Positions 700 to 22,636 of a stretch of 24,033 nucleotides of DNA are shown piece after piece. How positions within the stretch are numbered: the first letter of the stretch is position 1; each line of letters begins with the position of its first letter. This DNA is from a bacterium (GTDB lineage: Bacteria > Thermosulfidibacterota > Thermosulfidibacteria > Thermosulfidibacterales > Thermosulfidibacteraceae). Location: positions 1 through 24,033 of the forward strand of contig JALVZS010000151.1 of NCBI GenBank assembly GCA_027022065.1, written 5' to 3'. The translations under genes were made by a program, and so were the position numbers. The notes below the pieces were generated by a model. It did not search any database and was not told the origin of the DNA. It saw only the letters and a program-made list of their open reading frames with translations.

Positions 700-1678
700 G
701 GTTGTTCAAGCTCTCCTTTTCTTTCTATTTCTAGTCCTTACCATCGTTTTAGTGCACATAACATCCAGCCTATACAGGCCCACAGGGGTATCAGCGGAAA
801 TCGTTGTTGAAAAGGGAGAAACTGCGAGGCAGCTCGTTAGAGAGCTTGTGAAAAAGGGAATAACCAAACATCCAAGGCTCGTGCTCCTCTACATGAAGCT
901 CGCAGGCTGGGACAAGAGGTTAAGGCCCGCGCGCATAGTTACCAAAGAAACAGAAAGCGTGGCGGACATTATTGAGAGGCTGGTCAAATACGTACCTTTA
1001 GTAAAGGTGGTCGTTTACGAAGGAATGGATTCCTATGAAATAGCCCACAGACTGCAATCCTTAAATGTAACAAGCGAAAAAAACTTTCTGGATGCCCTTA
1101 AGGCCTTAAGCCCTAAGGACTTTGGGCTCTTTGGCTCAAGCATGGAGGGGTATCTCTTCCCAGACACATATTTTTTCTCAAAGGGAACAAGGCCAGAAGT
1201 TGTAGTTAAAGCCATGGTGGAAAACTTTAAGAGAAAGGCAGTGCCACTTCTTCTTAAAAGCCACATCCTTCCACCTTACAAAACCCTCATAGTGGCCTCC
1301 ATGGTGCAAAAAGAAACTTATGTACCTGAGGAAATGCCCCTCGTTGCAAGCGTGATATACAACAGGCTAAAAAGGGGAATGCCTCTGCAGATAGATCCAA
1401 CGGTTATATACGCAGAGAGAAAGAAGCTTAATCGCCTAACGGACCCTCTGATAAACCACAGGGACTTAAAGATAGACTCCCCTTACAACACATACCTAAG
1501 AACAGGACTTCCCCCAACCCCTATCTGCAATCCAGGACTTGACGCCATAAGGGCAGCGGTATTTCCGGCAAAAACAGGATATCTTTACTTTGTATCAGAA
1601 GGAAACGGCAGACACTACTTTTCAAAGAACTTAAAAGAACACCTAAAGGCTGTTAGGCGCTTTTTAAAGGCCAAGTAG
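674..1678 (+). CDS. mltG: Endolytic murein transglycosylase MltG (YceG-like)
   Basis: MltG is an inner-membrane lytic transglycosylase that cuts nascent peptidoglycan and is thought to terminate glycan strand growth. The 334-residue protein has one N-terminal membrane anchor (about 12-30). An extracytoplasmic LysM-like region (about 40-110) follows, then the catalytic YceG domain. The catalytic Glu is E214 in the block VASMVQKETY. The conserved EGYLFPDTY (158-166), YNRLKRGMPLQIDPTV (229-244) and NTYxxxGLPPTPICNPG (272-288) blocks are all present. The ATG start lies inside the end of der, in another frame, giving a 26-nt overlap. The stop codon lies inside the 3' end of the convergent minus-strand gene, with a 15-nt tail-to-tail overlap and no clear terminator between them. 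Confidence 0.95.
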   Translation: MLFGERELKVVQALLFFLFLVLTIVLVHITSSLYRPTGVSAEIVVEKGETARQLVRELVKKGITKHPRLVLLYMKLAGWDKRLRPARIVTKETESVADIIERLVKYVPLVKVVVYEGMDSYEIAHRLQSLNVTSEKNFLDALKALSPKDFGLFGSSMEGYLFPDTYFFSKGTRPEVVVKAMVENFKRKAVPLLLKSHILPPYKTLIVASMVQKETYVPEEMPLVASVIYNRLKRGMPLQIDPTVIYAERKKLNRLTDPLINHRDLKIDSPYNTYLRTGLPPTPICNPGLDAIRAAVFPAKTGYLYFVSEGNGRHYFSKNLKEHLKAVRRFLKAK

Positions 1679-2419
1679 CAAGTTGTAGCTTTCCAGGGCT
1701 CCCTTTTCGTCGTGCACCTCAAGGGTAAAGATAATATCCCTTTCCTTTGCCCAATTTATAACAGAAAGAATGGGAGCGGAACCAGAAAGTATCTTCCAGT
1801 GCCTGTCCTCCCTAGCGTCGTTGTCGTGTATGTGAAGCTCCTTAATTCTGTCCCCTATCCTCAAAAGCCACTCCTCAAGAGATACCCTGGAGAACAGGTG
1901 AAAGTGCCCCACATCAAAACACACTCCCACCCTTTCGCTTGTCTCTTCAAGCAGCTCACACAAAACAGCAGGATCCTCATCAAACACATTCTCCACGCAT
2001 ATTTTCACATGGCTTGGTATGTTTTCATCAATCCAGGCAAGGGTCTGCTTCGCCACTTTCATCCATACATCCACATTCCCGTTATACCTCCAGCGGTCGT
2101 ATCCCGTGTGTATTACAACAGCTACGGGTGATAGGAGCTCCACAAAGGGGAAGAAGCTCTCGTACCTCTTTTTAACTGCGTCAAGCACAAGGGGATCCAC
2201 AGCCCCAAGGTTCATCTCATAAAAGGGAGCATGTATGGTGCAGGAAAGCCCTGCATCTTCAAGGGCTTCTTTAACACTTCTCAGCTTATCAAAGGGAGCG
2301 CTGTCCACCACATCAGCAGGTATGTAGAACTCCGGCTGTATCTTCTTCTCAAGCATTATTGGGAACTTTTCATCAAGCATCTTGAAAGGGAGATGGACAA
2401 ATATCCTTTCTCTTTTCAC
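1664..2419 (-). CDS. Sugar-phosphate isomerase/epimerase-like TIM-barrel protein
   Basis: The 251-residue protein belongs to the xylose-isomerase-like (AP endonuclease 2) TIM-barrel superfamily, whose members are metal-dependent isomerases, epimerases or endonucleases. Candidate metal or substrate ligands at strand ends are H63 (HAPF), H104 (HTGY), E143 (CVENVF), D169 and H172 (FDVGHFH), H196/H198/D199 (LHIHDND), H207 (EDRHW) and E234 (LEVH). This is the usual metal-site pattern, so the fold and likely metal use are well supported. The substrate is not known. The start is a GTG that forms a GTGA overlap with the stop of the upstream PAS sensor gene. A GAGGAGG sits about 10 nt before it. The overlap implies coupled translation with the sensor. 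Confidence 0.8.
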   Translation of the reverse strand: MKRERIFVHLPFKMLDEKFPIMLEKKIQPEFYIPADVVDSAPFDKLRSVKEALEDAGLSCTIHAPFYEMNLGAVDPLVLDAVKKRYESFFPFVELLSPVAVVIHTGYDRWRYNGNVDVWMKVAKQTLAWIDENIPSHVKICVENVFDEDPAVLCELLEETSERVGVCFDVGHFHLFSRVSLEEWLLRIGDRIKELHIHDNDAREDRHWKILSGSAPILSVINWAKERDIIFTLEVHDEKGALESYNLLLGL

Positions 2420-4062
2420 GATTCCAGAACCTCCTCTAGTTCCTCCAGTCTAAAAGGCTTCTTCAAAACCGCATCTGCAAAGGAAAAGGCCTGTATGTTA
2501 ACCCCCTTGGTGGTTCCCTTTGCCAGCACCACAAACCTTTCCGCAAGCTCCTTTAGGTTTTTAAGTAATTCCTCATCCGCATCTTCAAGCAGTTCCATTT
2601 CAACTATCAAACAATCAAAACGCTCCGGGGGTATATTTCCCAAACTCTCACATGTAATAACCTCACACTCTCCCATCTCCAAGATAACCCTCATTATACT
2701 TAAAAGCGTTGGACTTTTGCTTACAACGAGCATCCTCTTGCCCTTCCAGCCGGCAAAGGCTGGAATTTCAATAACTACTCTATCCTCCAATACCTTCGCC
2801 CTAACAACGCCTTTACTGGAAATAGATAGCTCTTGAAGCAAGAGAGGTTTTGACCTCAGTTCTATCCTGATATATTTTCTACCACCTTCATCCACACTAT
2901 TGTAAATCCTTACTCCCAGAGAAGATCCAGATGCGGCAAGCACTCGAGCCAAGGACCTCTCAAAGACCTCCCTTATATCCTCAACATCCGCCAGGGCTGT
3001 CCAAAGATCATCTTGAACTTCACACTCTATTCCCTCAGCCCTTTTCTCAAACCTGCTGATTATGGAAAAGACAAGATCCTTAAGCTCAACGGGCCTCGTC
3101 TGGTTCCAGAAGGCCGATGAAAGATAGAGCATCTGGTGGGTCAGCTCTCTTGCCTCAAGGCATATCTTTTCCATAGCCTCGGCATTCTCTTTAAGTGGAC
3201 CCTTAAGATATATCTTAACGAGCGATAGGTGCCCCATGAGAACCGCCAGAAGATTATTGAAGTCGTGGGCAAAGCTTCCGGCTATATCTATTAGGGTTCT
3301 TACGCTCTCCTCTCTCAGCCTCTCCCTCTGTCTTGCCACCTCCTTGGTTATATCCTCCATGTACTTTACCGCTCCCATCACATAGCCGAAGTCGTCCTTT
3401 ATGGGAATGGCTCCCTCTCTATAGTACTTTACCCTTTTTCTTCCCACATATACCCTTTCAACCTGGGCAATGGGCTTGGATTTATCTATAGCCTCTTTAA
3501 CCACGCAGCCTGCACAGGGAACATCTGAGTTGTGAAATACCTTGTGGCAGGGCACACCCAGCACTTCCTCAGGAGATTTTCCACCCCATCTGGCCATGGT
3601 GCTGTTTATCATCCTGACCCTCATATCCCTGTCCATAACCCCTATACCGTAGGGAACCACATCAATTATGGCCTCAAGTAGCTTCTCCCTGGCCACACTA
3701 TCGGTAATGTCCAGGCCTATCCCACATATAGCATTCTTTCCCTGCCACCTTATAAGGGAAAATGTGATATTAAGCCATCTTATACGCCCGTCCCTGGTAA
3801 CTACTCTGAAAGGATAGGTTTCTGTAGGCTCCTCCCCTCTGATCCTCATTTTGAAGCGGGAAAGCACCATCTCTCTGTCGCTTTGAAAAACCAAAGAGTA
3901 AGTAACAATCTTATTAGTAAGCTCCTCTCTCGTGTATCCCAAACACTTCTCGCATCCTGGATTTGCATAAAGAAGCGGCTTAAAAAGATCATTCACTACA
4001 AAGCAGATGAGCCTGTCTGAGGTATCAATAAACCTATAGAGATGCTCGGTAAACTCCCTCAT
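2416..4062 (-). CDS. PAS-PAS hybrid histidine-kinase-like sensor with degenerate ATPase and receiver domains
   Basis: Numbering here counts from an upstream TTG at 4098; subtract 12 for the chosen ATG at 4062. Two PAS domains lie at about 20-135 and 140-255. The second carries a Cys cluster (C184, C195, C198). A linker leads to a DHp-like helix with an intact H-box, SFAHDFNNLL (H278). The following segment (about 337-449) looks like a shortened ATPase domain. It lacks recognisable N, G1 (DxGxG), F and G2 (GxGLGL) boxes. The C-terminal receiver-like domain (about 455-558) has VVSKSP where VVDDxP is usual and Glu (E500) where the phosphorylated Asp should be, while the KKPF lysine remains. It is therefore probably a sensor or scaffold without kinase activity. 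ATG 4062 was chosen because TTG 4098 lies inside the terminator hairpin of the preceding operon. No strong ribosome site is seen at either. Confidence 0.8.
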   Translation of the reverse strand: MREFTEHLYRFIDTSDRLICFVVNDLFKPLLYANPGCEKCLGYTREELTNKIVTYSLVFQSDREMVLSRFKMRIRGEEPTETYPFRVVTRDGRIRWLNITFSLIRWQGKNAICGIGLDITDSVAREKLLEAIIDVVPYGIGVMDRDMRVRMINSTMARWGGKSPEEVLGVPCHKVFHNSDVPCAGCVVKEAIDKSKPIAQVERVYVGRKRVKYYREGAIPIKDDFGYVMGAVKYMEDITKEVARQRERLREESVRTLIDIAGSFAHDFNNLLAVLMGHLSLVKIYLKGPLKENAEAMEKICLEARELTHQMLYLSSAFWNQTRPVELKDLVFSIISRFEKRAEGIECEVQDDLWTALADVEDIREVFERSLARVLAASGSSLGVRIYNSVDEGGRKYIRIELRSKPLLLQELSISSKGVVRAKVLEDRVVIEIPAFAGWKGKRMLVVSKSPTLLSIMRVILEMGECEVITCESLGNIPPERFDCLIVEMELLEDADEELLKNLKELAERFVVLAKGTTKGVNIQAFSFADAVLKKPFRLEELEEVLES

Positions 4063-4073
4063 AGAGTTGAGAA

Positions 4074-4107
4074 TATCAAATAATAGGTGGGGGACCAAGC
4101 CCCCACC
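4074..4107 (-). terminator. Intrinsic terminator after the ETF oxidoreductase gene
   Basis: On the minus strand a perfect 8-bp stem, GGTGGGGG/CCCCCACC, closes a 6-nt loop (4094-4099) and is followed by a T-rich run (TATTATTTGAT). It begins 16 nt beyond the stop at 4124, so it probably ends the beta-oxidation/ETF transcript. The T tract is interrupted, so termination may be partial and could let some transcript through into the PAS sensor gene, for which I see no convincing promoter. Confidence 0.65.
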
Positions 4108-4123: not shown

Positions 4124-6130
4124 CTACTCCATGGCTTCCCTTACAATCTCAGCGATGTCCTTGAGCTGGATCTCCTCTTCCTTGCCCTTGTTCTTGAGTC
4201 CATCGTCAAACATGGTGAGGCAGAAGGGGCATGCGGTAACTATAAGCTCCGCACCTGTGTTTATGGCTTCTTCTGTCCTTTCAACATTTATGCGCTTTCC
4301 AATAGTCTCCTCAAGCCACATCCTACCGCCACCTGCACCACAGCAGAAAGAAATCTCCCTGTTCCTTGGCATCTCCAAGAGTTTTTCAGCAGGCACCACA
4401 TTGGCAAGAACCTTTCTGGGCTCATCAAATATGCCGTTGTGCCTGCCAAGGTAACAGCTATCGTGGTAAACCGTTTTAAGGGCTAGGCCCTTCTTGAGCT
4501 TTATCCTGCCCTCGTTTATGAGCCTCAGGATAAACTCGGTGTGGTGCCATACCTCGCCTTCCCAGCCGTACTGAGGATACTCGTGCTTAAGAACATGGTA
4601 TCCGTGGGGACAGGCAACGATAACCTTCTTCACATTGTAGGACTTAAGAAGCTCCACATTCTCCATCGCCAGCATCTCAAACAGGTACTCATTCCCTAAC
4701 CTTCTTGCAGAATCACCGCAGCATTTCTCTTCGGTTCCCAGTATGGCGAAGTCAACACCGGCAGCCTTTAGGATCTCCACCAGGGCCTTCATGACCTTCT
4801 TGTAGCGATCATCATAAGCTCCAGCACATCCAACCCAGAGCAGATATTCAGCCTCACCCTTTTCTGACATAAGTGGAATATCCAATCCTTCTGCCCAATC
4901 AGCCCTTGCAGCAAATCCAACGCCCCAGGGGTTGAAGTTGTTCTCCATGTTCCTGAAGGCAAGCCCCATCTCCTCGGGGATATCTCCCTCCATAAGGGCA
5001 AGGTAACGCCTGAGCTGTATAATCTTCTGAGGATGCTCATTCCTCGTGGGGCATATATGCAGACAGGCTCCACAGGTAGTGCATGCCCATATGGCATCCT
5101 TGTCCAAAAGCCTACCAACAAGAGGCTCAACCCCCTCTATCTCCTCTTCTGGTGAGGGCTTCTGCCCATCCTTCATAGCGGCCATGATTTTAGGAGCATC
5201 CTCAAGTAGAATTTCCCTCAGGTCCTGTATCATCTTTCCAGGCTTGAGAGGTTTTCCTGTTTTGTTTGCAGGACACAGATCCGTGCACCTGTTGCAGTAT
5301 GTACAGGCATAGGTATCAAGCAGATCCTTCCAGGAAAACTGATCTACCCTATTTACACCAAAGAACTCCGTATTCTCAAAGTCCATCCTGAACTGCTTAA
5401 ATCCCTCAAGGTTCTGTAGATAAATGTTGGGCCAGCTCGCTATGATGTGCAGGTGCTTTGAGTAAAGAAGAAGGGGCAAGAATACCAAAAGTATGGCGGT
5501 GTGGAGGAACCAGCATGTTGCGTAAAGCGCGTGAGCCCCTGTCTCGGTTGACGGGCCAAAGATTCCGAGAAGCAAGCTTGATATGGGCCTTAAAGCCTCG
5601 TGTCCAAGTCTAAGCTCTCCCATGTTCATACCGAAGAAGGTTATCACAACGCCCATTATAAGTCCCAGTATAACAGGGGCATCCCAGTGGTTTTCTACCC
5701 TCTCCGGCTTAACCACATAGCGCCTTATGAGAGCCGCTATAATGGCAATAAAAACGCCTGCTGCAAAGAAGTCCTGTAGAAGGGTCAAAAGACCATAAAG
5801 GAAGCTTCCTAAAAAGGCAAAGGAAAAGTGGGGAAATATTATCCTCAAAACCGCCTCAACCGCAGTGGGGAACAGAAGCATAAAGCCCCAAAAGATAACC
5901 GTGTGCATTATACCCACAGCGGTATAGGGACGCTTTCTGCTACATATCTGGGCGAAGATGTACTTTAAGGTCTCCTTTATCCTGAAATCCCTATTGGAGG
6001 TCCTGTCCATAGGATCCTTTTCACAGATTTGAAGATAAGAGATGAGCTCCTTCGCCCTTCTCACAAACACATAAGCGGAGCCAACCGCCAGTATCGCCAG
6101 GATCACCCTAAGTATCACAAGGCTCTCCAT
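4124..6130 (-). CDS. Membrane ETF:(mena)quinone oxidoreductase, NarI-like plus HdrD-like Fe-S domains (EMO type)
   Basis: The 668-residue protein fuses a cytochrome-b/NarI-like membrane domain to an HdrD/GlpC-like Fe-S domain. Members beside etfBA in fatty-acid-oxidising anaerobes pass electrons from reduced ETF to menaquinone. About five membrane segments lie between residues 2 and 235. Histidines that could bind heme include those in MHTVIF, the ATCWFLHT stretch and KHLH. Two 4Fe-4S motifs follow: C276/C279/C282/C286 and C350/C353/C356/C360. Two CCG domains come next, with C435, C470/C471 and C507, then C559, C596/C597, C634 and C637. The start is set by a GGGAGGTG site 5 nt before ATG 6130; a longer reading to 6166 would run into the terminator stem upstream. 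Gene order after etfA supports the role. The quinone type is inferred. Confidence 0.88.
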
Positions 6131-6135
6131 CACAC

Positions 6136-6143
6136 CACCTCCC
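6136..6143 (-). promoter_or_regulatory. Strong ribosome binding site that fixes the oxidoreductase start
   Basis: On the minus strand GGGAGGTG lies 5 nt before the ATG at 6130. It sits just past the T tract of the etfA terminator. It therefore favours the 668-residue product over the longer in-frame reading, whose extra codons would come from the terminator hairpin. Confidence 0.75.
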
Positions 6144-6144
6144 G

Positions 6145-6178
6145 TGTAAAATAAAACCGGGGTCAAAAGACCCCGGTT
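6145..6178 (-). terminator. Perfect intrinsic terminator between etfA and the ETF oxidoreductase gene
   Basis: On the minus strand the arms AACCGGGGTC and GACCCCGGTT (6169-6178 and 6155-6164) form a perfect 10-bp stem with a TTTT loop. TTATTTTA follows directly. It starts 29 nt after the etfA stop. Only 14 nt separate the T tract from the next start codon, so there is little room for a new promoter. The downstream gene must then depend on read-through or on a promoter inside etfA. Confidence 0.85.
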
Positions 6179-6207
6179 GTTGTAATTTTTATCATGAGCA
6201 TTTACCT

Positions 6208-7188
6208 TTAGGCCTGTCCTTTCTCCTTCTTTATCCTCTCAATAAGAACAGGCACCACCTTGAACAGATCCCCAACAATACCAAAGTCGGCCACATTGAA
6301 TATGGGAGCATCGGGATCCTTGTTAATGGCAACGATGTACTTGGAGGAGGACATCCCAGCAAGGTGCTGGATAGCACCAGATATACCCACAGCGATGTAG
6401 AGCTTGGGTGAAACAGTTTTACCAGTCTGCCCAACCTGATCGGACTGGGGCCTCCAACCAGCATCAACGGCAGCACGAGAAGCACCCACAGCGGCACCAA
6501 GGAGATCCGCAAGCTCCTCAAGCATGGCAAAGTTCTCAGGCCCTTTCATTCCACGACCACCAGAAACGATGATCTCCGCCTCGGTAAGCTCAGGCCTGCC
6601 AGTGGACTTTATGTTAAACTCCTTCATAACCATCTTCTTCTCGGCATCTGTAGGCTCAAAAGGTATGTTCTCCACCTCCGCCTTTTTGCTGGTATCGGGC
6701 TCTGCAATGGGGAAGGCATTGGGCCTTATGGAGATCATCTTAATAGGAGACTTGAAGCCTATTTCAACTATGACCTTACCAGAGATGGCAGGCCTTATGG
6801 CAACAATGTTGTCTCCATCAATCCTGTAACCTGTGCAGTCAGGGGCTATTCCTGCACCCACCCTTGCAGCAACCCTGGGAAGAAGGTCTCTTCCCGTCTG
6901 GGTTCCTCCCATGAGCACCACCTTGGGCTGTTTCTCCTTAACGAGATCTCCAATCACTCTGGCATAGGCCATGGGGTGGTAGTACTTGAGGAAAGGATTG
7001 TCCACCACATAGACCTTGTCCGCACCATAAGAGGCTATCTCATCGGCAAGGGAACCAATCCCCTCACCTATTATTACGGCCTCCATGGAGCATCCAAGCT
7101 CATCGGCCATCTTCCTTCCAAGGCTCAGGGCCTCTTTTGCAGGCTTTCTAAGCTCTCTGTCTCTCTGCTCTGCTATGACAAATACCAT
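6208..7188 (-). CDS. etfA: Electron transfer flavoprotein alpha subunit
   Basis: EtfA binds the electron-carrying FAD of the soluble ETF heterodimer, which takes electrons from acyl-CoA dehydrogenase. The 326-residue length is normal. The N-terminal ETF domain covers about 1-190. The C-terminal FAD-binding domain covers about 200-320, with [12 protein letters not shown] (209-220), [11 protein letters not shown] (235-245), [20 protein letters not shown] (251-270) and the signature around [18 protein letters not shown] (274-291). The ATG has an AAGGAGGTG site and lies 12 nt after the etfB stop, so the two subunits are co-translated. A strong terminator follows the gene. I could not decide from sequence whether this ETF is bifurcating. 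The neighbouring quinone oxidoreductase argues for a simple electron-delivery role. Confidence 0.97.
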
Positions 7189-7200
7189 GGCTTCACCTCC

Positions 7201-7995
7201 TTAAAGCACCTTGGCTTCTTCTTTGAGGAACTTGATGAGCTCCTCCACCACCTCTTCAGGCTCACCCTCAACCTTTCTTCCCGCCTGCCTTGCAGGAGGC
7301 AGCTCGTACTTGAGAACCTCTGTGAAGGAGCCTGCCTTGCCTACGGTGCCGGCATCAATACCGAGATCGGCAAGGGTGTACTTGTTTATGGGTTTCCTCT
7401 TAGCCTTCATGATGTTAGGAAGTGAGGGGTATCTGGGTTCGTTGAGACCCTTTCTTCCCGCAAAAACAGCAGGAAGCTCTACTTCAAACACCTCCTCACC
7501 GCCTTCAACCATTCTGACGGCAACCGCCTTATTACCATCAATGTCAAGCTTCACTATGTTGCACACAGATGGAATCCCCAACATTTCCGCAACCATGCTG
7601 GGAACGGTCCAGGTATCACCGTCAATGGCCCTCTGCCCGAACATCAAAAGCTGGAAGGTATCTAGTCCCCCCTCTTTCTTAAGAGCCTCTACCAAAACCT
7701 TGGCAGTGGCATAGGCATCCGAACCATCCAAGGAATCATCCTCAATGTGAACGCCTCTGTCGGCTCCCATGGCCAGAGCAGACCTTATGGCTTCTTGTGC
7801 CCTTGCAGGCCCCATGCTTACAACCACTATCTCATCAACTATCCCTGCCTCTTTTTTCCTTACTGCCTCCTCAACCGCAAACTCATCATAGGGGTTGAGG
7901 ATGTACTTTATCTCGCTTTTGTCCAGCCTATCACCCGCAAGCTTCACACGGGTCTCGGTGTCAGGAACACTCTTCACGAAGCATATCGCCTTCAT
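7201..7995 (-). CDS. etfB: Electron transfer flavoprotein beta subunit
   Basis: EtfB is the partner of EtfA in the ETF dimer and usually carries a second nucleotide or flavin. The 264-residue protein shows the family blocks GPARAQEAIRSALAMGADR (62-80), GQRAIDGDT (120-128) and NEPRYPSLPNIMKA (185-198). The ATG has an AAGGAGGTGAGG site. A sigma-70 promoter lies 47-75 nt upstream. A FadR-like operator sits between that promoter and the ribosome site, so etfBA can be switched apart from the genes before it. The acyl-CoA dehydrogenase gene ends 82 nt upstream, the longest gap inside the cluster. Confidence 0.97.
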   Translation of the reverse strand: MKAICFVKSVPDTETRVKLAGDRLDKSEIKYILNPYDEFAVEEAVRKKEAGIVDEIVVVSMGPARAQEAIRSALAMGADRGVHIEDDSLDGSDAYATAKVLVEALKKEGGLDTFQLLMFGQRAIDGDTWTVPSMVAEMLGIPSVCNIVKLDIDGNKAVAVRMVEGGEEVFEVELPAVFAGRKGLNEPRYPSLPNIMKAKRKPINKYTLADLGIDAGTVGKAGSFTEVLKYELPPARQAGRKVEGEPEEVVEELIKFLKEEAKVL

Positions 7996-8011
7996 AACCT
8001 CACCTCCTTAG

Positions 8012-8029
8012 TGAATGAGTATTCATTCA
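8012..8029. promoter_or_regulatory. FadR-type (TetR family) operator palindrome upstream of etfB
   Basis: The minus strand reads TGAATGAATACTCATTCA, a perfect inverted repeat with 7-bp arms around a 4-bp spacer. As I recall it, the Bacillus FadR operator consensus is TGAATGAMTANTCATTCA, and every position fits. FadR is a TetR-family repressor of fatty-acid oxidation genes that is released by long-chain acyl-CoA. The site lies just downstream of the predicted transcript start and upstream of the etfB ribosome site, a position suited to repression. No TetR-family gene lies in this window, so the regulator would be encoded elsewhere. Confidence 0.75.
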
Positions 8030-8030
8030 T

Positions 8031-8045
8031 TAACCCTAAGGGTTA
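8031..8045. promoter_or_regulatory. Second palindrome overlapping the etfB -10 element
   Basis: The minus strand reads TAACCCTTAGGGTTA, a perfect palindrome around one central base. It overlaps the -10 box (8042-8047) and the expected transcript start, and it adjoins the FadR-like box with one base between them. It has no T tract of terminator type. A related CCCTTTAGGG occurs before the XRE-cupin regulator gene, so it may be an operator for that protein. That link is inference. Confidence 0.45.
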
Positions 8046-8070
8046 TACATACACCAAAAGCCGTTGTCAA
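8042..8070 (-). promoter_or_regulatory. Sigma-70-type promoter for etfBA
   Basis: On the minus strand TTGACA (8065-8070) is a perfect -35 box. It is separated by exactly 17 nt from TATAAC (8042-8047), which matches the -10 consensus at five of six bases. The predicted transcript start is near 8035, giving a leader of about 40 nt that holds the FadR-like box and the ribosome site. This is the best promoter in the window. Confidence 0.8.
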
Positions 8071-8077
8071 CCTAAAA

Positions 8078-9226
8078 TCACATCTCCTTAAGCAACGCCC
8101 TCGCTATAGTAAGGCGCTGGGCCTCTGCAGTTCCCTCGTATATCTCTGTAATCTTGGCATCTCTGTAGTGGCGCTCCACATCGTAATCCGTGGTGTATCC
8201 GTATCCACCGTGCACCTGTATCGCTTCCCTTGTGACTTTCATGGCCACATCTGAAGCGAAAAGCTTGGCCATGGCAGAAAGTTTGTAGAAACTGGGAATA
8301 CCCTGATCTTTTAACCATGCCGCCTTTAGGTAGAGCAGCCTTGCGGCCTCAATAAGTGTGGCCATATCTGCCAGTTTGAACTGTATGGCCTGGAAGTTGG
8401 CTATGGGCTGTCCAAACTGGACCCTTGTCTTTGCAAACTCCACGGCCTCCTCAAAGGCAGCCTGCGCAATGCCCACAGCCTGCGCAGCAATACCTATTCT
8501 TCCGCCATCGTAGCAGTACATAGCAATGTAGAAGCCCTGACCCTCTTCACCCAGGCGATTTTCAGCAGGGATCTTGCAGTCCTCAAACACAAGCTCTCCT
8601 GTGGATGAGCCCCTTATACCCAGCTTGTGCTCATATTTGGTTATCTCAAAGCCAGGGATGCCCTTCTCCACGATGAATGCGCTCATACCCTTGTGCTTCT
8701 TCTCCTTATCGGTCATGGCAAACACGAGGAATATGTCAGCCTCCCTGGCATTGGTGATAAAGTGCTTTGTGCCGTTGAGGATGTAGTAATCACCATCCCT
8801 TTTCGCCGTGGTGGATATGCTGGTAACATCCGTCCCAGCCCCCGGCTCTGTCATGGCATGGGCACCTATCTTTTCCCCCTTGGCCAGGGGAACCAGGAAT
8901 TTCTTTTTCTGCTCCTCGGTCCCGTACTTCAGTATGGGATCAACAACAAGGGATGTATGTGCGGAAACAAGCACCCCCGTTGAGGCACAGGCACGAGAAA
9001 GCTCCTCCACAACCATGGAATAGGCCACATAGTTCAAACCAGAGCCACCGTATTCCTCAGGCACATGAATGCCCATAAGACCAAGTTCTGCAAGCTGCTT
9101 GATGATCTCCTGGGGAATCTCACACTTCTCATCTATCTCCTTGGCCCTGGGCTTTACCTGCTCCTCTGAAAACCTTCTAACCATATCCCTCAACATTTTT
9201 TGCTCTTCAGTAAGCTCAAAGTTCAT
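8078..9226 (-). CDS. Acyl-CoA dehydrogenase (probably short-chain/butyryl-CoA type)
   Basis: This FAD enzyme oxidises acyl-CoA to trans-2-enoyl-CoA and passes electrons to ETF. The 382-residue length is typical of the short- and medium-chain group. Seen are YGGSGL (59-64), signature 1 [14 protein letters not shown] (121-134) and the C-terminal signature around [20 protein letters not shown]. The catalytic base is E364 in [13 protein letters not shown], the position used by butyryl-CoA dehydrogenases. An AAGGAGGG site precedes the ATG. The start overlaps the 3' end of the crotonase gene by 11 nt. etfBA lies directly downstream, as expected for its electron acceptor. Chain length preference is inferred from similarity and context only. 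Confidence 0.93.
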
Positions 9227-9959
9227 GGCACTCCCTCCTTAAAAATTTTGGTTCCCTCTTTTCAAAAAAGGCTCTTATGCCTTCTCTTTTGTCCTCTGTA
9301 CCAAAGGCAAAGCTAAACATCTCCCTTTCCAAGGATAGACCGGCCTCCAAAGAGAGATCCACAGATGCGTTTATTATCCTCTTCGTCATCACCTGCGCAG
9401 TCTGGGAAAGCTTTAATACCTTAGGAAGAACCTCTCCACTAACAAACTTCTCCATTTCTTCTCTGTCTTCAAATATACGGGCTATAAATCCCTGTAGCTC
9501 CTCTGCTCCAACATCTCCCATAAAAAACAGCTTTTTTGCCCTAGACAGCCCCAAGTCCCTAACAGCCCTTTGAATACCGCCAAATAGAGGAATGAATTTT
9601 TCATCAACACCAAAAACGGATGATTTCGTGGCGTAAACCAAATCACAGAGAAAGAGAAACTCAAGACAGCTGTTCAGACAAATTCCATCAACCTGTGCCA
9701 CAGTTATAAATGGAATATCTTCAAACTCACAGGCGTATTTATGAGCCTTTTTAAGCAGGGCCATATCGGGATGCTGCAAATACCAGCTATTATTACCAAA
9801 TAGCCTAAAGATTAAAACCTTTTGGCTACAAGAAAGCTCATCAAACAAAAAAGGAAACAGCTCATCCAACACCCAGGAAATATCCTTTTGATAAAGGGGG
9901 AAGACTATAAAGCCTTCCCCCTCTGTGTACTCCAACTCACTTCTTCTCCGTGTAGTCAT
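9216..9959 (-). CDS. Divergent crotonase (enoyl-CoA hydratase/isomerase superfamily)
   Basis: The 247-residue protein has a recognisable crotonase core and sits in the operon slot of enoyl-CoA hydratase. Numbered from ATG 9959, E100 and E120 lie exactly 20 residues apart and match the two catalytic glutamates of classic hydratases. The C-terminal pattern [17 protein letters not shown] is also normal. However, the usual LGGGCE oxyanion-hole segment reads LNSCLE, and the AGADL-type segment reads LQHPDM. Its function is therefore uncertain: an altered hydratase, another crotonase reaction, or a non-catalytic partner. The start is unclear. ATG 9959 overlaps hbd by 23 nt. TTG 9935 just after the hbd stop has a GGAG about 10 nt upstream. 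A further ATG at 9998 is less likely. Confidence 0.78.
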
Positions 9960-10806
9960 AGAAGCCCCTGCCCGTCTTCCTTCCAAGGTAGCCAGCATCC
10001 ACCATCTTCACAAGCAACGGACAAGGTCTGTATTTGGGATCACCAAAAGCCTCGTACATGACATTGAGGATATACAGGCAGGTGTCCAGCCCAATGAGAT
10101 CCGCCAGGGCTAAAGGCCCCATGGGGTGGTTCATCCCGAGTTTCATAATAGTATCAATGTCCTCAGGTGAACCTACTCCCTCATAGAGGGCAAATATGGC
10201 CTCATTTATCATGGGCATAAGGACTCTATTGGACACAAAACCCGGGGAGTCATTGATAACCACAGGAACTTTGCCCAGCTTCTCGGAAAGCTTAACCACG
10301 AGATCTGCCGTTTCATCCGTGGTCTGAAGGCCCTTTATGACCTCTATGAGCTTCATAACGGGAACAGGATTCATAAAGTGCATGCCAATCACCTTCTCCG
10401 GCCTGCTGGTCCAGGAGGCTATCTTGGTTATGGATATGGATGATGTGTTGGTGGCCAGGATCACCTCTGGCCTCACTATCTTGTCAACCGCCTCAAACAC
10501 CTCCTTCTTAACATCCTCAAGTTCCACCACTGCCTCAATGAAGAAGTCCACATCGGCAAAGTCTTCAAGGTTTGTGGTTCCCTTGATACGGCCCATTATT
10601 GCCTTTTTGTCATCCTCGGTAATCTTTCCTTTAGAAACGGCCCTGTTCAGGTTCTTCTCTATCATGGATATACCACGATTGAGGGCCTCCTCATTAATCT
10701 CCCTCACTATAACCTCATATCCCGCCTGGGCACAGACCTGGGCAATCCCATGGCCCATGGTACCTGCGCCGCAAACGCCTATCTTTTTGATGTCCTCTAG
10801 CTTCAT
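9937..10806 (-). CDS. hbd: 3-hydroxybutyryl-CoA (3-hydroxyacyl-CoA) dehydrogenase
   Basis: The enzyme interconverts 3-hydroxyacyl-CoA and 3-oxoacyl-CoA with NAD(P). The 289-residue single-function form is typical of butyrate-type pathways. The Rossmann motif GVCGAGTMGHGIA lies at 10-22. Catalytic residues aligned on the family are S122, H143 (GMHFMNP), E155 and N193 (GFVSNR). The C-terminal domain contains NHPMGPLALADLIGLDT (226-242). The ATG at 10806 is chosen because AAGGGAGGG lies just before it and the Rossmann fold begins right after it. A longer in-frame reading to 10833 would overlap the thiolase gene. The thiolase stop is 13 nt upstream. Confidence 0.95.
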   Translation of the reverse strand: MKLEDIKKIGVCGAGTMGHGIAQVCAQAGYEVIVREINEEALNRGISMIEKNLNRAVSKGKITEDDKKAIMGRIKGTTNLEDFADVDFFIEAVVELEDVKKEVFEAVDKIVRPEVILATNTSSISITKIASWTSRPEKVIGMHFMNPVPVMKLIEVIKGLQTTDETADLVVKLSEKLGKVPVVINDSPGFVSNRVLMPMINEAIFALYEGVGSPEDIDTIMKLGMNHPMGPLALADLIGLDTCLYILNVMYEAFGDPKYRPCPLLVKMVDAGYLGRKTGRGFYDYTEKK

Positions 10807-10819
10807 GGCTACCCTCCCT

Positions 10820-11998
10820 TTAAACAAGTTCAACTATCATTGCCACCGCACCGCCTCCGCCAAGGCAGAGGGTGCAAAGTCCCCTCTTAAGCCCTCTCTG
10901 CTTGAGGGCGTAGATCAAAGTTGTGAGTACCCTTGCTCCACTTGCACCAATGGGATGACCCAGTGCAACCGCTCCTCCGTGCACATTGAACTTCTCATGG
11001 GGTATGTTGAGTGCCCTCATCACCGCCACAGAAGCGGCGGCAAAGGCCTCGTTGTGCTCAAACAGGTCTATATCATCAACGGTGAAGCCCGTCATATCAA
11101 GAAGCTTTTTAACACAAGGAATAGGCGCCTCCATCACCCACTCAGGAGCAACATGTGCAGAGGTGTAAGCTATTATCTTTGCTATAGGTTTGAGTCCCGC
11201 TGCCTCCACCTTTTCCTTTGACGCTATAACCACAGCAGCAGCTCCATCGCTTATCTTGGAAGCGTTTCCTGCTGTGACCTTACCGTCCTTTTTGAAAACA
11301 GGGGGAAGCTTGGCGAGCTTCTCAAGGGTGGTCTCCCTTGGACCCTCGTCGGTGTCAAATATTATAGGATCTCCCTTCTTCTGAGGAATTTCAACAGGAA
11401 CGATCTCCTCCTTGAACCAACCGTTCTTTATAGCTGTAAGGGCCCTGTTATTGGATTCAAGGGCAAACTTGTCCATGTCCTCACGGGACACATTGTACTT
11501 TTCAGCTATGAGCTCTCCCGTCATTCCCATGTGGAAGTTGTGGTAGGGATCCCAGAGACCGTCATGAACCATGAGATCCACAAGCTCTCCGTTGAACAGC
11601 CTGTAACCTGTTCTTGCCTTGAAAAGGGCATAAGGACACAGGCTCATGTTCTCCATTCCACCTGCCACTATAACATCGGCCTCGTTGGCCTTGATGGCTG
11701 TGGCACCCAGCATAACCGCCTTTAAACCTGAGCCGCACACCTTGTTGACAGTGAACGCATTCACATTGTCGGGCAGTCCAGCATACCTCATGGCCTGCCT
11801 TGCAGGAGCCTGACCCACACCAGCCTGAACCACCTGGCCCATTATAACCTCATCCACATCCTCGGGCTTAATGCCAGCACGCTTAACAGCCTCCTTTATG
11901 ACTACGGCGCCGAGTTTGGGAGCAGGGATGGTGCTCAAACCTCCTAAGAAATTACCAATGGCGGTTCTAACCGCCGAAAGGATGTAAACCTCTCTCAT
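10820..11998 (-). CDS. thlA: Acetyl-CoA C-acetyltransferase (thiolase II)
   Basis: This thiolase condenses or cleaves acetoacetyl-CoA and acetyl-CoA at the end of the four-carbon pathway. The 392-residue protein carries the nucleophile C88 (NKVCGSG), H348 (VALGHPIGASG) and C378 (CLGGGG), at spacing that fits the biosynthetic thiolase family. The NEAFAAASVAV block is also present. The ATG has a GGAGGTGAGG site, and the 16 nt up to the start are identical to those of etfB. It is the first enzyme gene after the regulator, 21 nt downstream, so the regulator and the pathway probably share one transcript. The symbol reflects role rather than proven orthology. Confidence 0.95.
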   Translation of the reverse strand: MREVYILSAVRTAIGNFLGGLSTIPAPKLGAVVIKEAVKRAGIKPEDVDEVIMGQVVQAGVGQAPARQAMRYAGLPDNVNAFTVNKVCGSGLKAVMLGATAIKANEADVIVAGGMENMSLCPYALFKARTGYRLFNGELVDLMVHDGLWDPYHNFHMGMTGELIAEKYNVSREDMDKFALESNNRALTAIKNGWFKEEIVPVEIPQKKGDPIIFDTDEGPRETTLEKLAKLPPVFKKDGKVTAGNASKISDGAAAVVIASKEKVEAAGLKPIAKIIAYTSAHVAPEWVMEAPIPCVKKLLDMTGFTVDDIDLFEHNEAFAAASVAVMRALNIPHEKFNVHGGAVALGHPIGASGARVLTTLIYALKQRGLKRGLCTLCLGGGGAVAMIVELV

Positions 11999-12691: not shown

Positions 12692-13534
12692 TTACCTGCT
12701 TAGTCCCTTTAATCTTTCCGCCTTGCTGACTATCTCCCTTATGCGGAAGGCAAAGTTTGACTCAACCACAACAACCTCGCCTCTGGCTATCACCTTGCCA
12801 TTAACCACAAGATCCACATAGTCATCTGCGGATCTGTCCAGCTCTATGAGAGAACCCGGCCCCAGCTTAAGCACATCCTTAATCTTCATTCTGGCCTTCC
12901 CCAAACTTACAGCAACGGGAAGCTCTATGTCCAATATGAGATCCAACTTTTCAGAGCTGATCTTAACCATATCCTTTTGGGGTTGAGCTTCAGGCTGGGG
13001 AATAACCTCCGCCTTTTCCTCTTTGACCTCGGTAGTATCCATCTCGTTAAAGACGGCCTCCAGTGCATCATCCAGCAGGAAGTAGGCAGTCACTTCAGAA
13101 TCTTCAACCTTTATCTTAACGGGGAAGAATTTAGAATACCCCTTGAGTAGTAGATCTTCTCTGGAACACTCTGAGGACTCAGGCTGGGTGAAGTTAAAGT
13201 CTTCCTGATACTGGGTAAACTCCATTCTCAAGCGGCCCCAAAACTGGTTCATAAACTCTGAAAATGCATCTTTCAGCTCATCTGTGAGCTCCTCAGATTC
13301 CATTCCCAGTATCTTCCCAGCAAGGGCCGCCACATCTTTCTTATCAAAGAAGAGGGCCCCCTTGCCTTCCTTCCCCTCAACACTCACCTCAACGAGAAAT
13401 CCCTCTTCAATGGGAACGTCCACAATGTCTTTAAGCTCGTCCCCTTCCGCCTGCACCTCTCCCTTAACCATCATCAAGCCCGTTATAACCTCTTCCAGTG
13501 CAGGAAGGGCCTCTTTAAGCACTTTGGGTATCAT
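12692..13534 (-). CDS. fliY: Flagellar motor switch protein FliY (CheC-like plus FliN-like domains)
   Basis: The 280-residue protein joins an N-terminal CheC/CheX-like domain to a C-terminal SpoA (FliN) domain (about 196-270: ISSEKLDLILDIELPVAVSL and PGSLIELDRSADDYVDLVVN). In the first domain D89, E93 and N96, with P118, fit the DxxxExxN...P motif of CheY-P phosphatases. I see only one such site. Between the domains is a charged, Pro/Gln-rich linker (about 168-190). It would sit in the C ring and may also dephosphorylate CheY-P. It follows fliM by 4 nt and is the last flagellar gene. A separate FliN is encoded at the operon head. Confidence 0.85.
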   Translation of the reverse strand: MIPKVLKEALPALEEVITGLMMVKGEVQAEGDELKDIVDVPIEEGFLVEVSVEGKEGKGALFFDKKDVAALAGKILGMESEELTDELKDAFSEFMNQFWGRLRMEFTQYQEDFNFTQPESSECSREDLLLKGYSKFFPVKIKVEDSEVTAYFLLDDALEAVFNEMDTTEVKEEKAEVIPQPEAQPQKDMVKISSEKLDLILDIELPVAVSLGKARMKIKDVLKLGPGSLIELDRSADDYVDLVVNGKVIARGEVVVVESNFAFRIREIVSKAERLKGLSR

Positions 13535-13538
13535 GGCT

Positions 13539-14516
13539 TTACTCTCTAAGTTTTTCTATTTTTACGGCTTTCCTGCCCCTCTTTGCCCCCACCCTTGCCA
13601 GAAACTTGGGAACACCACCCACAAGAACGGGAAGAAGACTGTCAACAAAGGTATCAAGCCTTATAACATCCCCCTCCTCCAGCTCCAGTATATCTCCCAC
13701 AGTGAGCACCACAGTGCCCAAAATCCCCTCAACCTCTACAACAGTTTCCTCCACATGCTCTCTAACCCTGCGCCTGTCCTCCTCGGACACCTCTCTGGTG
13801 CCCGTGAACATTTCAATACCCAAATTGGAGCTTATGGGCTCAAGGGCTATGGCGGGGATGCAGAGGTTCATCATACCCTTAACTTCGCCGATTCTTATCT
13901 CAAAGGTTATAAGAACCACCACTTCGTTGGGGGCAACTATCTGGATAAGGTGGGGGCTTGACTCCTTCACCTCAACCACAAACTCCACATCCTCTATAAC
14001 ATCCTCCCACACCTTCTCCAGCTCATCTAAAGCTCTGTTGACCACACCATCCATGAGGTCCATCTCAAGATCCGTTAGGGGCCTTACCTCCTCCACAGGT
14101 TCCCCTGGACCACCCAGAAGCCTATCTATGATGGGGAACACAAGGGCGGGATTAATCTCCAGGGCAAATTTAGCCTCAAGCGGATAAACCCCCAAAACAC
14201 AAAAGAAGGTGGGATCAGGAAGCGCCATGAGGAACTCTGAATAGGTTATCTGCTCAATGGAGGTAAGCTCCACCTCAACTATGCTTCTAAGGTAAGTGGA
14301 AAGAACAGATGAGAAGTTCCTCGCAAATCTATCGTGCAGAAACTGTAGAAACCTAATCTGATCCTTGGATATCCTATCGGGCCTTTTGAAGTTGTAGGGA
14401 ACTGCAGTCTTCTGCGGCGTAAATTTTTCAGGAAGCGTATCAAAGTCCAGCTCCTCACCCTGCTGAAGGGCTGCAAGAAGTGCGTCAACCTCTTCCTGGG
14501 TGAGTATTTCCGCCAT
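13539..14516 (-). CDS. fliM: Flagellar motor switch protein FliM
   Basis: FliM is the middle part of the C-ring rotor that binds CheY-P and reverses rotation. The 325-residue length is normal. The N-terminal CheY-P-binding helix ILTQEEVDALLAAL (4-17) is present. The CheC-like middle domain spans about 45-235 with LLGGPGEP (133-140). The C-terminal SpoA domain spans about 255-322. The ATG lies 3 nt after the cheB stop, and fliY starts 4 nt after the fliM stop. No damage is seen. Confidence 0.96.
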   Translation of the reverse strand: MAEILTQEEVDALLAALQQGEELDFDTLPEKFTPQKTAVPYNFKRPDRISKDQIRFLQFLHDRFARNFSSVLSTYLRSIVEVELTSIEQITYSEFLMALPDPTFFCVLGVYPLEAKFALEINPALVFPIIDRLLGGPGEPVEEVRPLTDLEMDLMDGVVNRALDELEKVWEDVIEDVEFVVEVKESSPHLIQIVAPNEVVVLITFEIRIGEVKGMMNLCIPAIALEPISSNLGIEMFTGTREVSEEDRRRVREHVEETVVEVEGILGTVVLTVGDILELEEGDVIRLDTFVDSLLPVLVGGVPKFLARVGAKRGRKAVKIEKLRE

Positions 14517-14519
14517 GGC

Positions 14520-15596
14520 TTACCCCAAAACCAGCTTTGACACTATTACAGGTATATTATCTATTGAAGCTACATAGTCTGCAAGCCCCTTCTCAACAAC
14601 ACATCTAGGCATGCCGTACACTACACAGGACTGTTCATCCTCGGCAACCATAACCCCGCCTGCTCCTTTTATCTTTTTCGCCCCCTTACAGCCATCGGAA
14701 CCCATACCTGTAAGTATTACTCCCACCGTTGCACCACCACAGCAGGCTGCCACAGACTCGTAAAGTATATCTACGCTAGGCTTGTAGATAATCTTAGGCG
14801 GGGAATCCACAACCTTTATAACCCTCCTACCCCCTTCCCTTACCACCATCATCTGCTTGCCGCCTGGTGCTATATAGGCATACCCGTCCCTGACAGGCTC
14901 TCCGTTTTCCGCTTCCTTCACTGTGAGATGGCTCATGGAGTTAAGCCTCTCCGCCAGAAGCCCTGTAAACAAAGGTGGCATGTGTTGAGCCACCACCACA
15001 GGAAGGTTGAACCGCTTATCTAAAGAAGAAAAGAGCTTCTGAAGGGCAGGAGGACCACCTGTGGAAGAGCCCACAGCCACGATTTCAGCGTGAACCCTCT
15101 TTATCTCCTTATGCTCCCTCAAAGCAGGCCTTGATGTGACAGAAGGAGTGGGCTTCCTCCAGAACTCCATCGCCCTTTTTACAGAGCCCACTTTTCCCTT
15201 GGCGTTTTTCACCTTGCTTATAAGCTCTTCCTCCAGGTTGTAGAAGTGAAGAAGCCCCTTCTCCACACCCTTGGGAATAAAGTCTATGGCACCAAGCTCC
15301 AAAGCCTTTAAAGTAACCTCTGCCCCGTCCTTCGTAAGGGCACTTACCATAATAACAGGCGTGGGCTTTTTCTCCATAATCTCCTTAAGGGCTTCAAGTC
15401 CATCCTTTCTTGGCATCTCCACATCAAGGGTCACCACATCGGGAGAAAGCTCCAAAACCTTCTCAACCGCCTCCTCCCCGTCTTTGGCGAAGCCCACAAC
15501 CTCAATCTCTGGATCCTTCTGGAGAATGCGGGCAATAGCCCTTCTAAAAAACGGCGAATCATCAACCACTAACACCCTAATTTTGCCCAACCTCAT
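14520..15596 (-). CDS. cheB: Chemotaxis response regulator protein-glutamate methylesterase CheB
   Basis: CheB removes methyl groups from, and deamidates, chemoreceptors once phosphorylated by CheA. The 358-residue protein has a receiver domain (about 5-125) with D12/D13, phospho-acceptor D58 (VTLDVEMPRKDG) and K109. After a linker comes the methylesterase domain (about 168-356) with the Ser-His-Asp triad S178 (GSSTGG), H205 (AQHMP) and D301 (GMGSDG). It overlaps the end of fliA by 20 nt and precedes fliM by 3 nt. It is the only adaptation gene here; cheR, cheA, cheW and receptors are not in the window. Confidence 0.96.
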   Translation of the reverse strand: MRLGKIRVLVVDDSPFFRRAIARILQKDPEIEVVGFAKDGEEAVEKVLELSPDVVTLDVEMPRKDGLEALKEIMEKKPTPVIMVSALTKDGAEVTLKALELGAIDFIPKGVEKGLLHFYNLEEELISKVKNAKGKVGSVKRAMEFWRKPTPSVTSRPALREHKEIKRVHAEIVAVGSSTGGPPALQKLFSSLDKRFNLPVVVAQHMPPLFTGLLAERLNSMSHLTVKEAENGEPVRDGYAYIAPGGKQMMVVREGGRRVIKVVDSPPKIIYKPSVDILYESVAACCGGATVGVILTGMGSDGCKGAKKIKGAGGVMVAEDEQSCVVYGMPRCVVEKGLADYVASIDNIPVIVSKLVLG

Positions 15597-16302
15597 ATCC
15601 CCTCTCTCTCAAAATTTTTCTTATTCTCCTTATGGCCCGCCAGTGTATCTGGCAAACCCTGGCTTCGCTTATGTTCAGTATACTACCTATCTCCTTAAAT
15701 GTAAAACCCTCGGTGTAATATAGAGAAAGCACCAACTTTTCTCTTTCCGGAAGCATTTCTATGGCCCTAACCAGCTCTTGAAAAAATTCGTTCTGCTCAA
15801 GAAAGTAGGGAGGATCCCTGTCGTCTTCAAGCACAGAAAGCAAGGTATACTCGTCAACCCCTTCTATAACAGGATCCGATAGGCTCTTAACAGTGGAGTT
15901 TATAGAGTGCATCATCACATCCATTATCTCGCTTTCGTCCTTAACATCCATCTTCTCCATTAGCTCTTCCAGACTGGGTTCCCTTCCAAGCTCAAGGGCA
16001 AGCTCGTTCCATGCACTCTCAAGCTCCTTCACCTTTTTTCTTTTGTTTCTGGGGAGAAGATCCAGAGAGCGAAGATAATCCAATATAGCTCCCCTTATCT
16101 TTATCTCGGCAAACTTTGAGAAGCTCTCCTTTTTAGCAGGATCATATTTATTTACAGCATCCACAAGCCCTAAGTAGCCGTAACCCATGAGGTCTTCCAA
16201 CTCAACACTAGCTGGAAGCCTCTGCTTTATCCTCATGGCCACCTTCGCCACCAGCGGCATCATCTCCTCTATGAGCCTCTCCCTCTCCTTCTCCTGAACC
16301 AT
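15577..16302 (-). CDS. fliA: Flagellar sigma factor FliA (sigma-28)
   Basis: FliA directs RNA polymerase to late flagellar and chemotaxis genes. The 241-residue form has region 2 (about 17-83, with ELEDLMGYGYLGLVDAV and FAEIKIRGAILDYLRSLD), region 3 (about 88-160) and region 4 (about 180-232, with FTFKEIGSILNISEARVCQI as the HTH). ATG 16302 is chosen because GGGAG lies about 7 nt before it and the conserved part begins soon after. The open frame runs further upstream without family similarity. Even so, its first 95 nt overlap the small membrane-protein gene in another frame. No FlgM anti-sigma gene is nearby. Confidence 0.95.
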   Translation of the reverse strand: MVQEKERERLIEEMMPLVAKVAMRIKQRLPASVELEDLMGYGYLGLVDAVNKYDPAKKESFSKFAEIKIRGAILDYLRSLDLLPRNKRKKVKELESAWNELALELGREPSLEELMEKMDVKDESEIMDVMMHSINSTVKSLSDPVIEGVDEYTLLSVLEDDRDPPYFLEQNEFFQELVRAIEMLPEREKLVLSLYYTEGFTFKEIGSILNISEARVCQIHWRAIRRIRKILRERGYEVGQN

Positions 16303-16549
16303 TGCCCGTCTCCCAGGGCTTAGTAATAGCAAACAGCATACCAAAAAAGCCCACGAAGAAGCCAAAAAGAGCGGTCAGCACAACCTTTCCCATAACTACC
16401 CATGGATCGCTCTCCGTGTAGTAAAACACCACAAAAGAGATGCAAAAGGCCAAGATTCCGGAAATAACGCCTATCTTTAATGAGCTATTTCTGGTATCTG
16501 GATCTTTGAGGATCTCTTCAGCAACCCTATCCAGATCCAGCTGTTGCAC
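16208..16549 (-). CDS. Small two-helix membrane protein between flhG and fliA
   Basis: The 113-residue protein is not a family I can name. It has a charged N-terminus and two membrane segments (about 27-45 and 51-75), the second rich in Gly and Phe. The tail (about 80-113) is rich in Gly, Glu and Asp. The tail is encoded within the 95-nt overlap with fliA, so its composition may be dictated by the fliA frame. The GTG start has an AGAGGT site and overlaps the flhG 3' end by 23 nt. The position between flhG and fliA suggests a role in flagellar placement or assembly, but this is only guilt by association. Confidence 0.65.
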
Positions 16550-17381
16550 CTCTAAACCTCAGAAATCCCATGACGAGACGGGAAAGCCCCATGCTACCTC
16601 TAGTAAATATATTCCCGTCAGCTATCCTGTCTATCAAAGGGGAAAATACACCTTTCAGCTTATCCACCCCCTCAACACTCTGCTCCCTTATAAGGGATGT
16701 AACCGCTGAACTTCTCTTTATGGAACCCAGGTTTTTTATCTTAACCTCTGGGATGAATCTGCCCACAACAGCTTCAAGATATCTGAAAACAGAGGTGCCC
16801 TCCTCACCCTCAACCATATTTGCCACCACAAAGAACTCCTTGAGGGCATACTCCTTGTAAAGGCTCTTTATAAGAGCATAAGCATCCGTTAAAGATGTGG
16901 GTTCAGGAGTTACCACGACCAAAACATCCTGGCAGGAAACGCAGAACATAAGCACCTCATCCGATATACCTGCTGCTGTATCTGCAACAACGTAGTCCAC
17001 CATGCCGTCAAGCTTCAAAAGCTCAAGGGCAATCCTTTTTCTCATTTCATGATCCATAGATAAAAGCTCCCTTATGCCAGATCCTCCGGGAAGCACCCAG
17101 AAACCTTCCTTTACCTTCACCAAAACATCCTCAAGAGGAGCCTCTCCCTTGGCTATGTGATACAGGTTCTTATCGGCAGAAAGCCCTAACATAATATCCA
17201 CATTGGCAAGCCCCAGATCCCCATCTATAAGGCAAACCTTAAAGCCCCTATCCGACAGGAACTTGGATATAGCTATTGCTATGGTGGTTTTTCCCACACC
17301 GCCCTTACCGCTGGTTACAGCCACTGTGGCAACGGGATGCTTTACTTGAGCTATCCTCTTAAGAAGAGCCGCCTGCGTCAC
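16527..17381 (-). CDS. flhG: Flagellar number regulator FlhG (MinD/ParA-type ATPase)
   Basis: FlhG limits flagellar number and stimulates the FlhF GTPase. The 284-residue protein has a deviant Walker [10 protein letters not shown] (25-33), a Walker A' region [16 protein letters not shown] (51-66) and the switch D134 (VVADTAAG). The N-terminal [10 protein letters not shown] resembles the DQAxxLR motif that activates FlhF. A C-terminal amphipathic segment (about 264-278, [12 protein letters not shown]) resembles the MinD-type membrane-targeting helix. The GTG start forms a GTGA overlap with the flhF stop and has a GGAGGAG site. The 3' end overlaps the small membrane-protein gene by 23 nt. Confidence 0.95.
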
Positions 17382-21599: not shown

Positions 21600-21602
21600 G
21601 CC

Positions 21603-22370: not shown

Positions 22371-22636
22371 CGGATAAAGCTGGGTATGTTACCGTAAAGC
22401 TGCAGGGTGAAGTTCACCAGCATCCTAATCATCCACGGACCGAGAACCACAAGGACAATTGCAGCCACTATCATCTTGGGAACAAATGTAATGGTCATCT
22501 CCTGTATCTGGGTTGCAGCCTGCAGTATGCTTATAAGCACACCCACAACCATGGTGGCTATAAGGACTGGAGCAGCCAGCATAAGAGCCACCTTCATGGC
22601 AGCAATGGATATCTCAATAACCGTTGCTTGGCTCAT
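22367..22636 (-). CDS. fliQ: Flagellar export gate protein FliQ
   Basis: FliQ is a small gate subunit with two membrane helices. The 89-residue length is exactly in the normal range. Conserved blocks are [25 protein letters not shown] (about 22-46, first helix and turn) and [19 protein letters not shown] (about 51-69). Its ATG overlaps the fliP stop as ATGA, and its stop overlaps the fliR start the same way. Confidence 0.96.

Follow-up and report, generated by a model that had tools for sequence, protein, structure and literature searches.

A PAS-bearing hybrid histidine kinase of the Thermosulfidibacterota with degenerate ATPase and receiver domains, a candidate histidine pseudokinase

Known histidine pseudokinases and pseudo-receivers

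Histidine pseudokinases have been studied in few bacteria only. Proteins that keep the dimerization hairpin (DHp) of a histidine kinase next to a degenerate ATPase domain act in three modes: inhibition or dephosphorylation of a partner, phosphate relay, and formation of mixed dimers (PMC5992135, PMC3433190, PMC5898713, PMC12148439, PMC9491836). RetS of Pseudomonas aeruginosa has a degenerate HATPase domain without G boxes, does not autophosphorylate and inhibits GacS in three ways (PMC5992135); the two proteins form a mixed dimer through the DHp (PMC12148439), as do ChrS and HrrS (PMC9491836). Phosphate is passed on by ChpT (PMC3433190) and by PhyT (PMC5898713). DivL of Caulobacter is a pseudokinase devoid of kinase and phosphatase activity which regulates CckA (PMC4211667). 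In a survey of 42417 HisKA proteins, the HATPase domain went undetected in 1556 (about 3.7%), 711 of them with a phosphatase motif (PMC3591291). Pseudo-receivers (PsRs), defined as receiver domains in which one or more of the five conserved residues are missing, represent several percent of receivers, and Asp-to-Glu and Thr-to-Ala are among their frequent changes (PMC12632262).

Here we describe a protein in which sensors and phospho-accepting His are kept and both catalytic ends are gone, and of which a species of the same family retains an intact version. It offers a simple test case of what stays useful once a hybrid kinase loses catalysis. Such pseudokinases are already known, and this one is a clean example of a principle established before; each of its losses is ordinary, and their pairing within a single protein with PAS domains is probably less common. 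The window analysed (24,033 nucleotides) is one entire contig, JALVZS010000151.1, of a draft genome (GCA_027022065.1; 1.57 Mb, 251 contigs, completeness about 88%) from a small and little-studied phylum, sampled by nine species genomes. An original prediction, made from the window alone, had described a hybrid kinase that appeared dead in both its ATPase and its receiver domains. The observation as a whole was borne out, and the positions given for H278 and E500 were exact (Table 1).

Locus, domain order and sensor region

Table 1. Coordinates of the pseudokinase gene, its neighbours and its protein features in the window
Feature	Position	Strand	Remark
Xylose-isomerase-like TIM barrel gene	1664..2419	minus	downstream neighbour
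Pseudokinase gene	2416..4098	minus	560 codons, TTG start as listed
[4Fe-4S]/cysteine-rich oxidoreductase gene	4124..6166	minus	upstream neighbour; terminal gene of acyl-CoA dehydrogenase-EtfB-EtfA operon
PAS domain 1, about residues 17-135	3694..4050	minus	Pfam PAS_9 32-133
PAS domain 2, about residues 138-255	3334..3687	minus	Pfam PAS_4 146-254
DHp (HisKA) helical hairpin, residues 257-330	3109..3330	minus	homologue profile 43.6 bits, 0/500 shuffles; two long model helices
H278, phospho-accepting His of H-box AHDFNNLL	3265..3267	minus	alignments
D279-F-N-N282, D-x-x-N of HisKA phosphatase motif HE/DxxN/T	3253..3264	minus	motif per PMC3591291
Degenerate ATPase (CA) domain, residues 331-447	2758..3108	minus	initial ~45-49 residues still recognisable; N, G1, F and G2 boxes missing beyond them
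Former N box	2944..2958	minus	R381 and R385 at positions of homologues' two near-invariant Asn
Pseudo-receiver domain, residues 454-560	2419..2739	minus	18.1 bits, 0/500 shuffles; receiver fold in model
S460-K461, replacing acidic pair DD	2716..2721	minus	alignment
E500, replacing phospho-accepting Asp	2599..2601	minus	alignment
A526, replacing conserved Thr/Ser	2521..2523	minus	alignment
K547, sole retained active-site residue of receiver	2458..2460	minus	alignment

The protein has the order PAS-PAS-DHp-degenerate ATPase-pseudo-receiver. A Pfam scan returned the two PAS domains, sub-threshold HisKA (15.8 bits) and Response_reg (13.6 bits) matches, and no HATPase_c match. A profile built from 37 intact homologous kinases, eight from this and other genomes and 29 from viral contigs, gave 55 bits over residues 267-379, which span the DHp and the beginning of the ATPase domain, and 14 bits over the receiver at residues 453-559. 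The viral contigs, which hold 39 loci with AHDFNN-type kinases, served as alignment material only. When segment scores were compared with those of 500 shuffles, the DHp, residues 331-379 and the receiver each outscored all 500, which shows these segments, as judged by profile score, to be true homologues. Compared with solved structures, the family profile was closest to CckA (5idj). No membrane span was found in the protein, the highest 19-residue hydropathy being 1.35. The second PAS domain carries a motif C184...P-C195-x-x-C198 (3505-3549, minus strand), common in the alignment to three homologues (L008, L011 and L016), which is possibly a metal or redox site.

An alternative ATG start is possible at codon 13 of the gene. 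The oxidoreductase gene lies 25 bp upstream, and the stop codon overlaps the start of the TIM-barrel gene by 4 bp, which suggests that the reading frame is translated and coupled to it. The upstream operon (4124-11998, minus strand) encodes a thiolase, a 3-hydroxyacyl-CoA dehydrogenase, a crotonase, an acyl-CoA dehydrogenase, EtfB, EtfA and the FeS oxidoreductase, the last of which is present in eight of the nine genomes of the phylum. Conserved synteny was considered and rejected on both sides: the phylum shares the Etf/FeS operon, but the pseudokinase gene does not adjoin it where the flanks are readable (G002, G006 and G008), and in the other genomes the TIM-barrel gene has a different location, often ahead of ileS. 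In a genome of another genus of the phylum (G007, L100:698-1312), the end of a histidine kinase/receiver gene adjoins and faces the TIM-barrel orthologue, probably by coincidence. Further along the window there is a flagellar cluster (12692-23439, minus strand) with fliY, fliM, cheB, fliA, a minD-like gene, flhF, flhA, flhB, fliR and fliP. A serine-rich antisense reading frame of 201 codons (2231-2836, plus strand) covers part of the diverged region of the pseudokinase and looks like a by-product of minus-strand coding.

Loss of the ATP-binding boxes and of the receiver active site

The H-box is intact, as predicted: AHDFNN is letter-perfect and places the phospho-accepting H278 inside the DHp, which is the hallmark of HisKA proteins. 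The motif of bifunctional HisKA phosphatases is also present, as H278-D279-x-x-N282. It is not specific, because intact kinases carry it too; HDFNN is normal in the intact relatives, so its presence does not prove use in phosphatase action or relay. A perfect H-box ahead of an unrecognisable domain fits selection on the DHp.

The ATPase domain is truncated and diverged. In the profile alignment, positions 130-260 (131 positions) are skipped and 73 residues of the pseudokinase stand in their place. Alignment with the eight genome kinases and the 29 viral-contig kinases shows that the stretch with G1, F box, lid and G2 is missing. The domain is full-length in all 37 homologues, including the reciprocal-best kinase of a genome of the same family, and G2 was matched in nearly all viral-contig kinases, the misses of the regular expression being variants of G2. 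From the His to the C-terminus there are 283 residues, versus 336-370 in the eight genome-derived kinases. Thus the predicted disappearance of the N, G1, F and G2 boxes is supported by both the profile gap and the alignments, and the HATPase_c domain with these boxes that characterizes an active HisKA kinase is absent from the protein; a genome-wide HATPase_c search found ten places, none within this gene. From established kinase biochemistry, an ATPase remnant that lacks the N, G1, F and G2 boxes should not bind ATP. RetS, which has undergone the same loss, cannot autophosphorylate (PMC5992135).

Residues 380-452 are beyond recognition with the homologue profile, 41 of 500 shuffles scoring equally high. 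The region had been said to join the receiver cleanly through its terminal beta-strand; strands for it do appear in the alignment-based model and there only, and a clean join is beyond proof from sequence because the residues are no longer recognisable. The model of residues 257-560 comprises the DHp hairpin (pLDDT about 80-90), a mixed helix-strand remnant and the receiver, with a mean pLDDT of 79 and very low values at residues 427-449. Its best Foldseek match was ShkA (6qrj). The remnant (model residues 73-173) overlays RetS (6dk8_C) over 98 residues at 1.6 A with Z 13.2, in a model that depends on its alignment, and this overlay ties with receiver matches to the other half of the model. 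The input was an alignment of true kinases, misplaced past the N box, on which the model leans, so the likeness to RetS is a lead only. Folded alone, the remnant reached a pLDDT of 61 with no clear structural match.

The fragmentation of the draft genome into 251 contigs might suggest that a frameshift or an assembly error conceals a normal ATPase domain. However, the ATPase profile found nothing significant in the six frames of the locus, and codon usage supports the annotated frame in each stretch of 40 codons, more weakly at codons 381-420 and 461-500; together these results argue against a frameshift, which the original prediction had also considered unlikely. Moreover, the N-box change, the missing lid and the substitutions in the receiver arose separately, and one sequencing error is insufficient to explain them all. 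The artefact is extremely improbable and, as far as sequence allows, refuted.

In the receiver, four of the five residues of the quintet required for phosphorylation (DD, D, T/S and K; PF00072) are lost, which supports the dead receiver that had been read from VVSKSP and from the Glu at the phospho-acceptor site. A genome-wide receiver search still detects the domain at 17.6 bits. With receiver homology and four missing residues it falls within the definition of PsRs, and its Asp-to-Glu and Thr-to-Ala changes are both of the frequent kinds (PMC12632262). The proposal that E500 might be a built-in phospho-mimic is weakly supported, because Asp-to-Glu is common in pseudo-receivers generally and the receiver has no output domain.

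The nearest kinase found belongs to the same family and another genus (G002): it has 608 residues, the order PAS-PAS-HisKA-HATPase-REC and all boxes complete. The two proteins are reciprocal best matches between their genomes. A recent local deletion from a normal orthologue had been a concern; this kinase is intact, yet shares only 32% identity with the pseudokinase, which indicates that the loss is not recent. No other member of the phylum (nine species genomes) yielded the gene, and the search proposed with the original prediction, for orthologues with the same losses, gave none among the nine phylum genomes, 386 relatives and one scan of genome contigs, which returned only a distant Nitrospira kinase. 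On sequence grounds, the best explanation would be derivation from a CckA-like hybrid kinase: the AHDFNN-bearing kinases of this type would be the ancestral family, and the intact G002 kinase has the same domain order, whereas the pseudokinase lacks the N and G boxes and the receiver active site.

The loss of both catalytic domains and the single genome known to carry the gene could also mean decay on the way to complete loss. This is clearly unlikely, given 560 open codons, codon usage that stays in frame through the diverged region, a perfect H-box and the overlap with the next gene; the divergence also seems greater than a recent loss would leave, with 13-21% identity to the G002 kinase in the ATPase and receiver regions. 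The pseudokinase is real and probably functional.

Candidate modes of action and partners

Since the parts that use ATP and receive phosphate are gone, the protein probably acts on other signalling proteins. We favour, as fairly probable, a functional histidine pseudokinase under PAS control, whose DHp would act in trans without ATP. Presumably incapable of autophosphorylation, it would have the conformation of its DHp bundle set by the PAS pair and would work on a partner within its own cell, with the pseudo-receiver as a conformational or docking module rather than a phosphate acceptor. The likeliest single activity would be to dampen a hybrid kinase or a response regulator that serves as partner, as in RetS or PhyT, either through a phosphatase activity that uses the HDxxN motif or by a mixed DHp dimer; phosphate relay through H278, of the ChpT/Spo0B type, would be nearly as likely and only slightly behind. 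The original prediction had offered signalling without phosphorylation or a His-phosphotransfer role. Both match known pseudokinases (RetS and DivL for the first; ChpT, Spo0B and PhyT for the second), and sequence cannot separate them. With the intact H-D-x-x-N motif, which the prediction did not mention, an ATP-independent phosphatase becomes a third possibility. The alternatives below overlap in part with the favoured reading.

RetS resembles the pseudokinase in its HisKA domain, its HATPase domain without G boxes and its C-terminal receiver part. Its sensor is membrane-bound and periplasmic. Of the RetS-family features, the HATPase domain without G boxes was found here, and the membrane-bound sensor and the two receivers were not; the second receiver of RetS takes phosphate (PMC5992135), whereas in the pseudokinase both PAS domains are soluble and the single receiver is dead. 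ShkA also has a pseudo-receiver after its DHp-CA core, which in that protein controls the kinase core, but the core is active and followed by an additional true receiver.

In the genome (about 88% complete), eight HisKA proteins other than the pseudokinase exceed the Pfam cut-off, each at a place where HATPase_c is found too. No second clear HisKA-type protein was found to lack it. Two of the hybrid kinases (on contigs C190 and C222) are of the AHDFNN type and have normal receivers. Only one Hpt domain was found. It sits at the start of a reading frame that is located after a cheY-like gene and cut off by the contig end, and is most likely that of CheA. A relay role would be compatible with this.

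A dedicated phosphotransferase, in which H278 would accept phosphate from a hybrid-kinase receiver (that of C190 or C222, for example) and pass it to a terminal regulator, is possible, if on balance unlikely. ChpT and PhyT likewise combine a kept H-box with a lost ATPase domain; the DHp with His and degenerate CA domain of ChpT and Spo0B, which like PhyT are phosphotransferases descended from histidine kinases, is present here in sequence, and the genome offers hybrid kinases with normal receivers and, as found, only an Hpt resembling that of CheA. ChpT, however, consists of a DHp hairpin and a C-terminal atypical Bergerat domain, with neither a PAS pair ahead nor a pseudo-receiver behind; the genome is about 88% complete, and a missing Hpt needs no substitute.

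Rather unlikely is a pure allosteric scaffold, which would convey the PAS state to its partner kinase through protein contact while H278 stays unphosphorylated. DivL sets the precedent, regulating CckA without kinase or phosphatase activity (PMC4211667) in a pathway of CckA-type hybrid kinases, the family to which the pseudokinase is related; but DivL carries a Tyr where the His would be, whereas the pseudokinase keeps H278 and the whole H-box and has lost the ATP-binding boxes.

Very unlikely is one half of a mixed dimer, with H278 phosphorylated in trans by an intact paralogous kinase. The RetS-GacS DHp dimer and ChrS-HrrS are precedents, and C190 and C222 belong to the AHDFNN DHp family, but the DHp identity to these paralogues is low (30-33%), no higher than that to other species' members of the family.

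It is quite doubtful that the doubly dead kinase would be, as a PAS-gated, ATP-free regulator, either the replacement of the missing Hpt or the controller of the genome's other hybrid kinases, with the Glu-bearing pseudo-receiver fixing the DHp state.

A second non-canonical receiver of the genome lies in the C26 paralogue (L006 / L118, 12624-14012), a 625-residue hybrid kinase with an intact ATPase domain and a pseudo-receiver with VISSEP at the acidic pair. Descent of the pseudo-receiver from this paralogue was considered and rejected, their similarity being no higher than to other receivers. Of the four hybrid-type proteins observed in the genome, two thus have non-canonical receivers.
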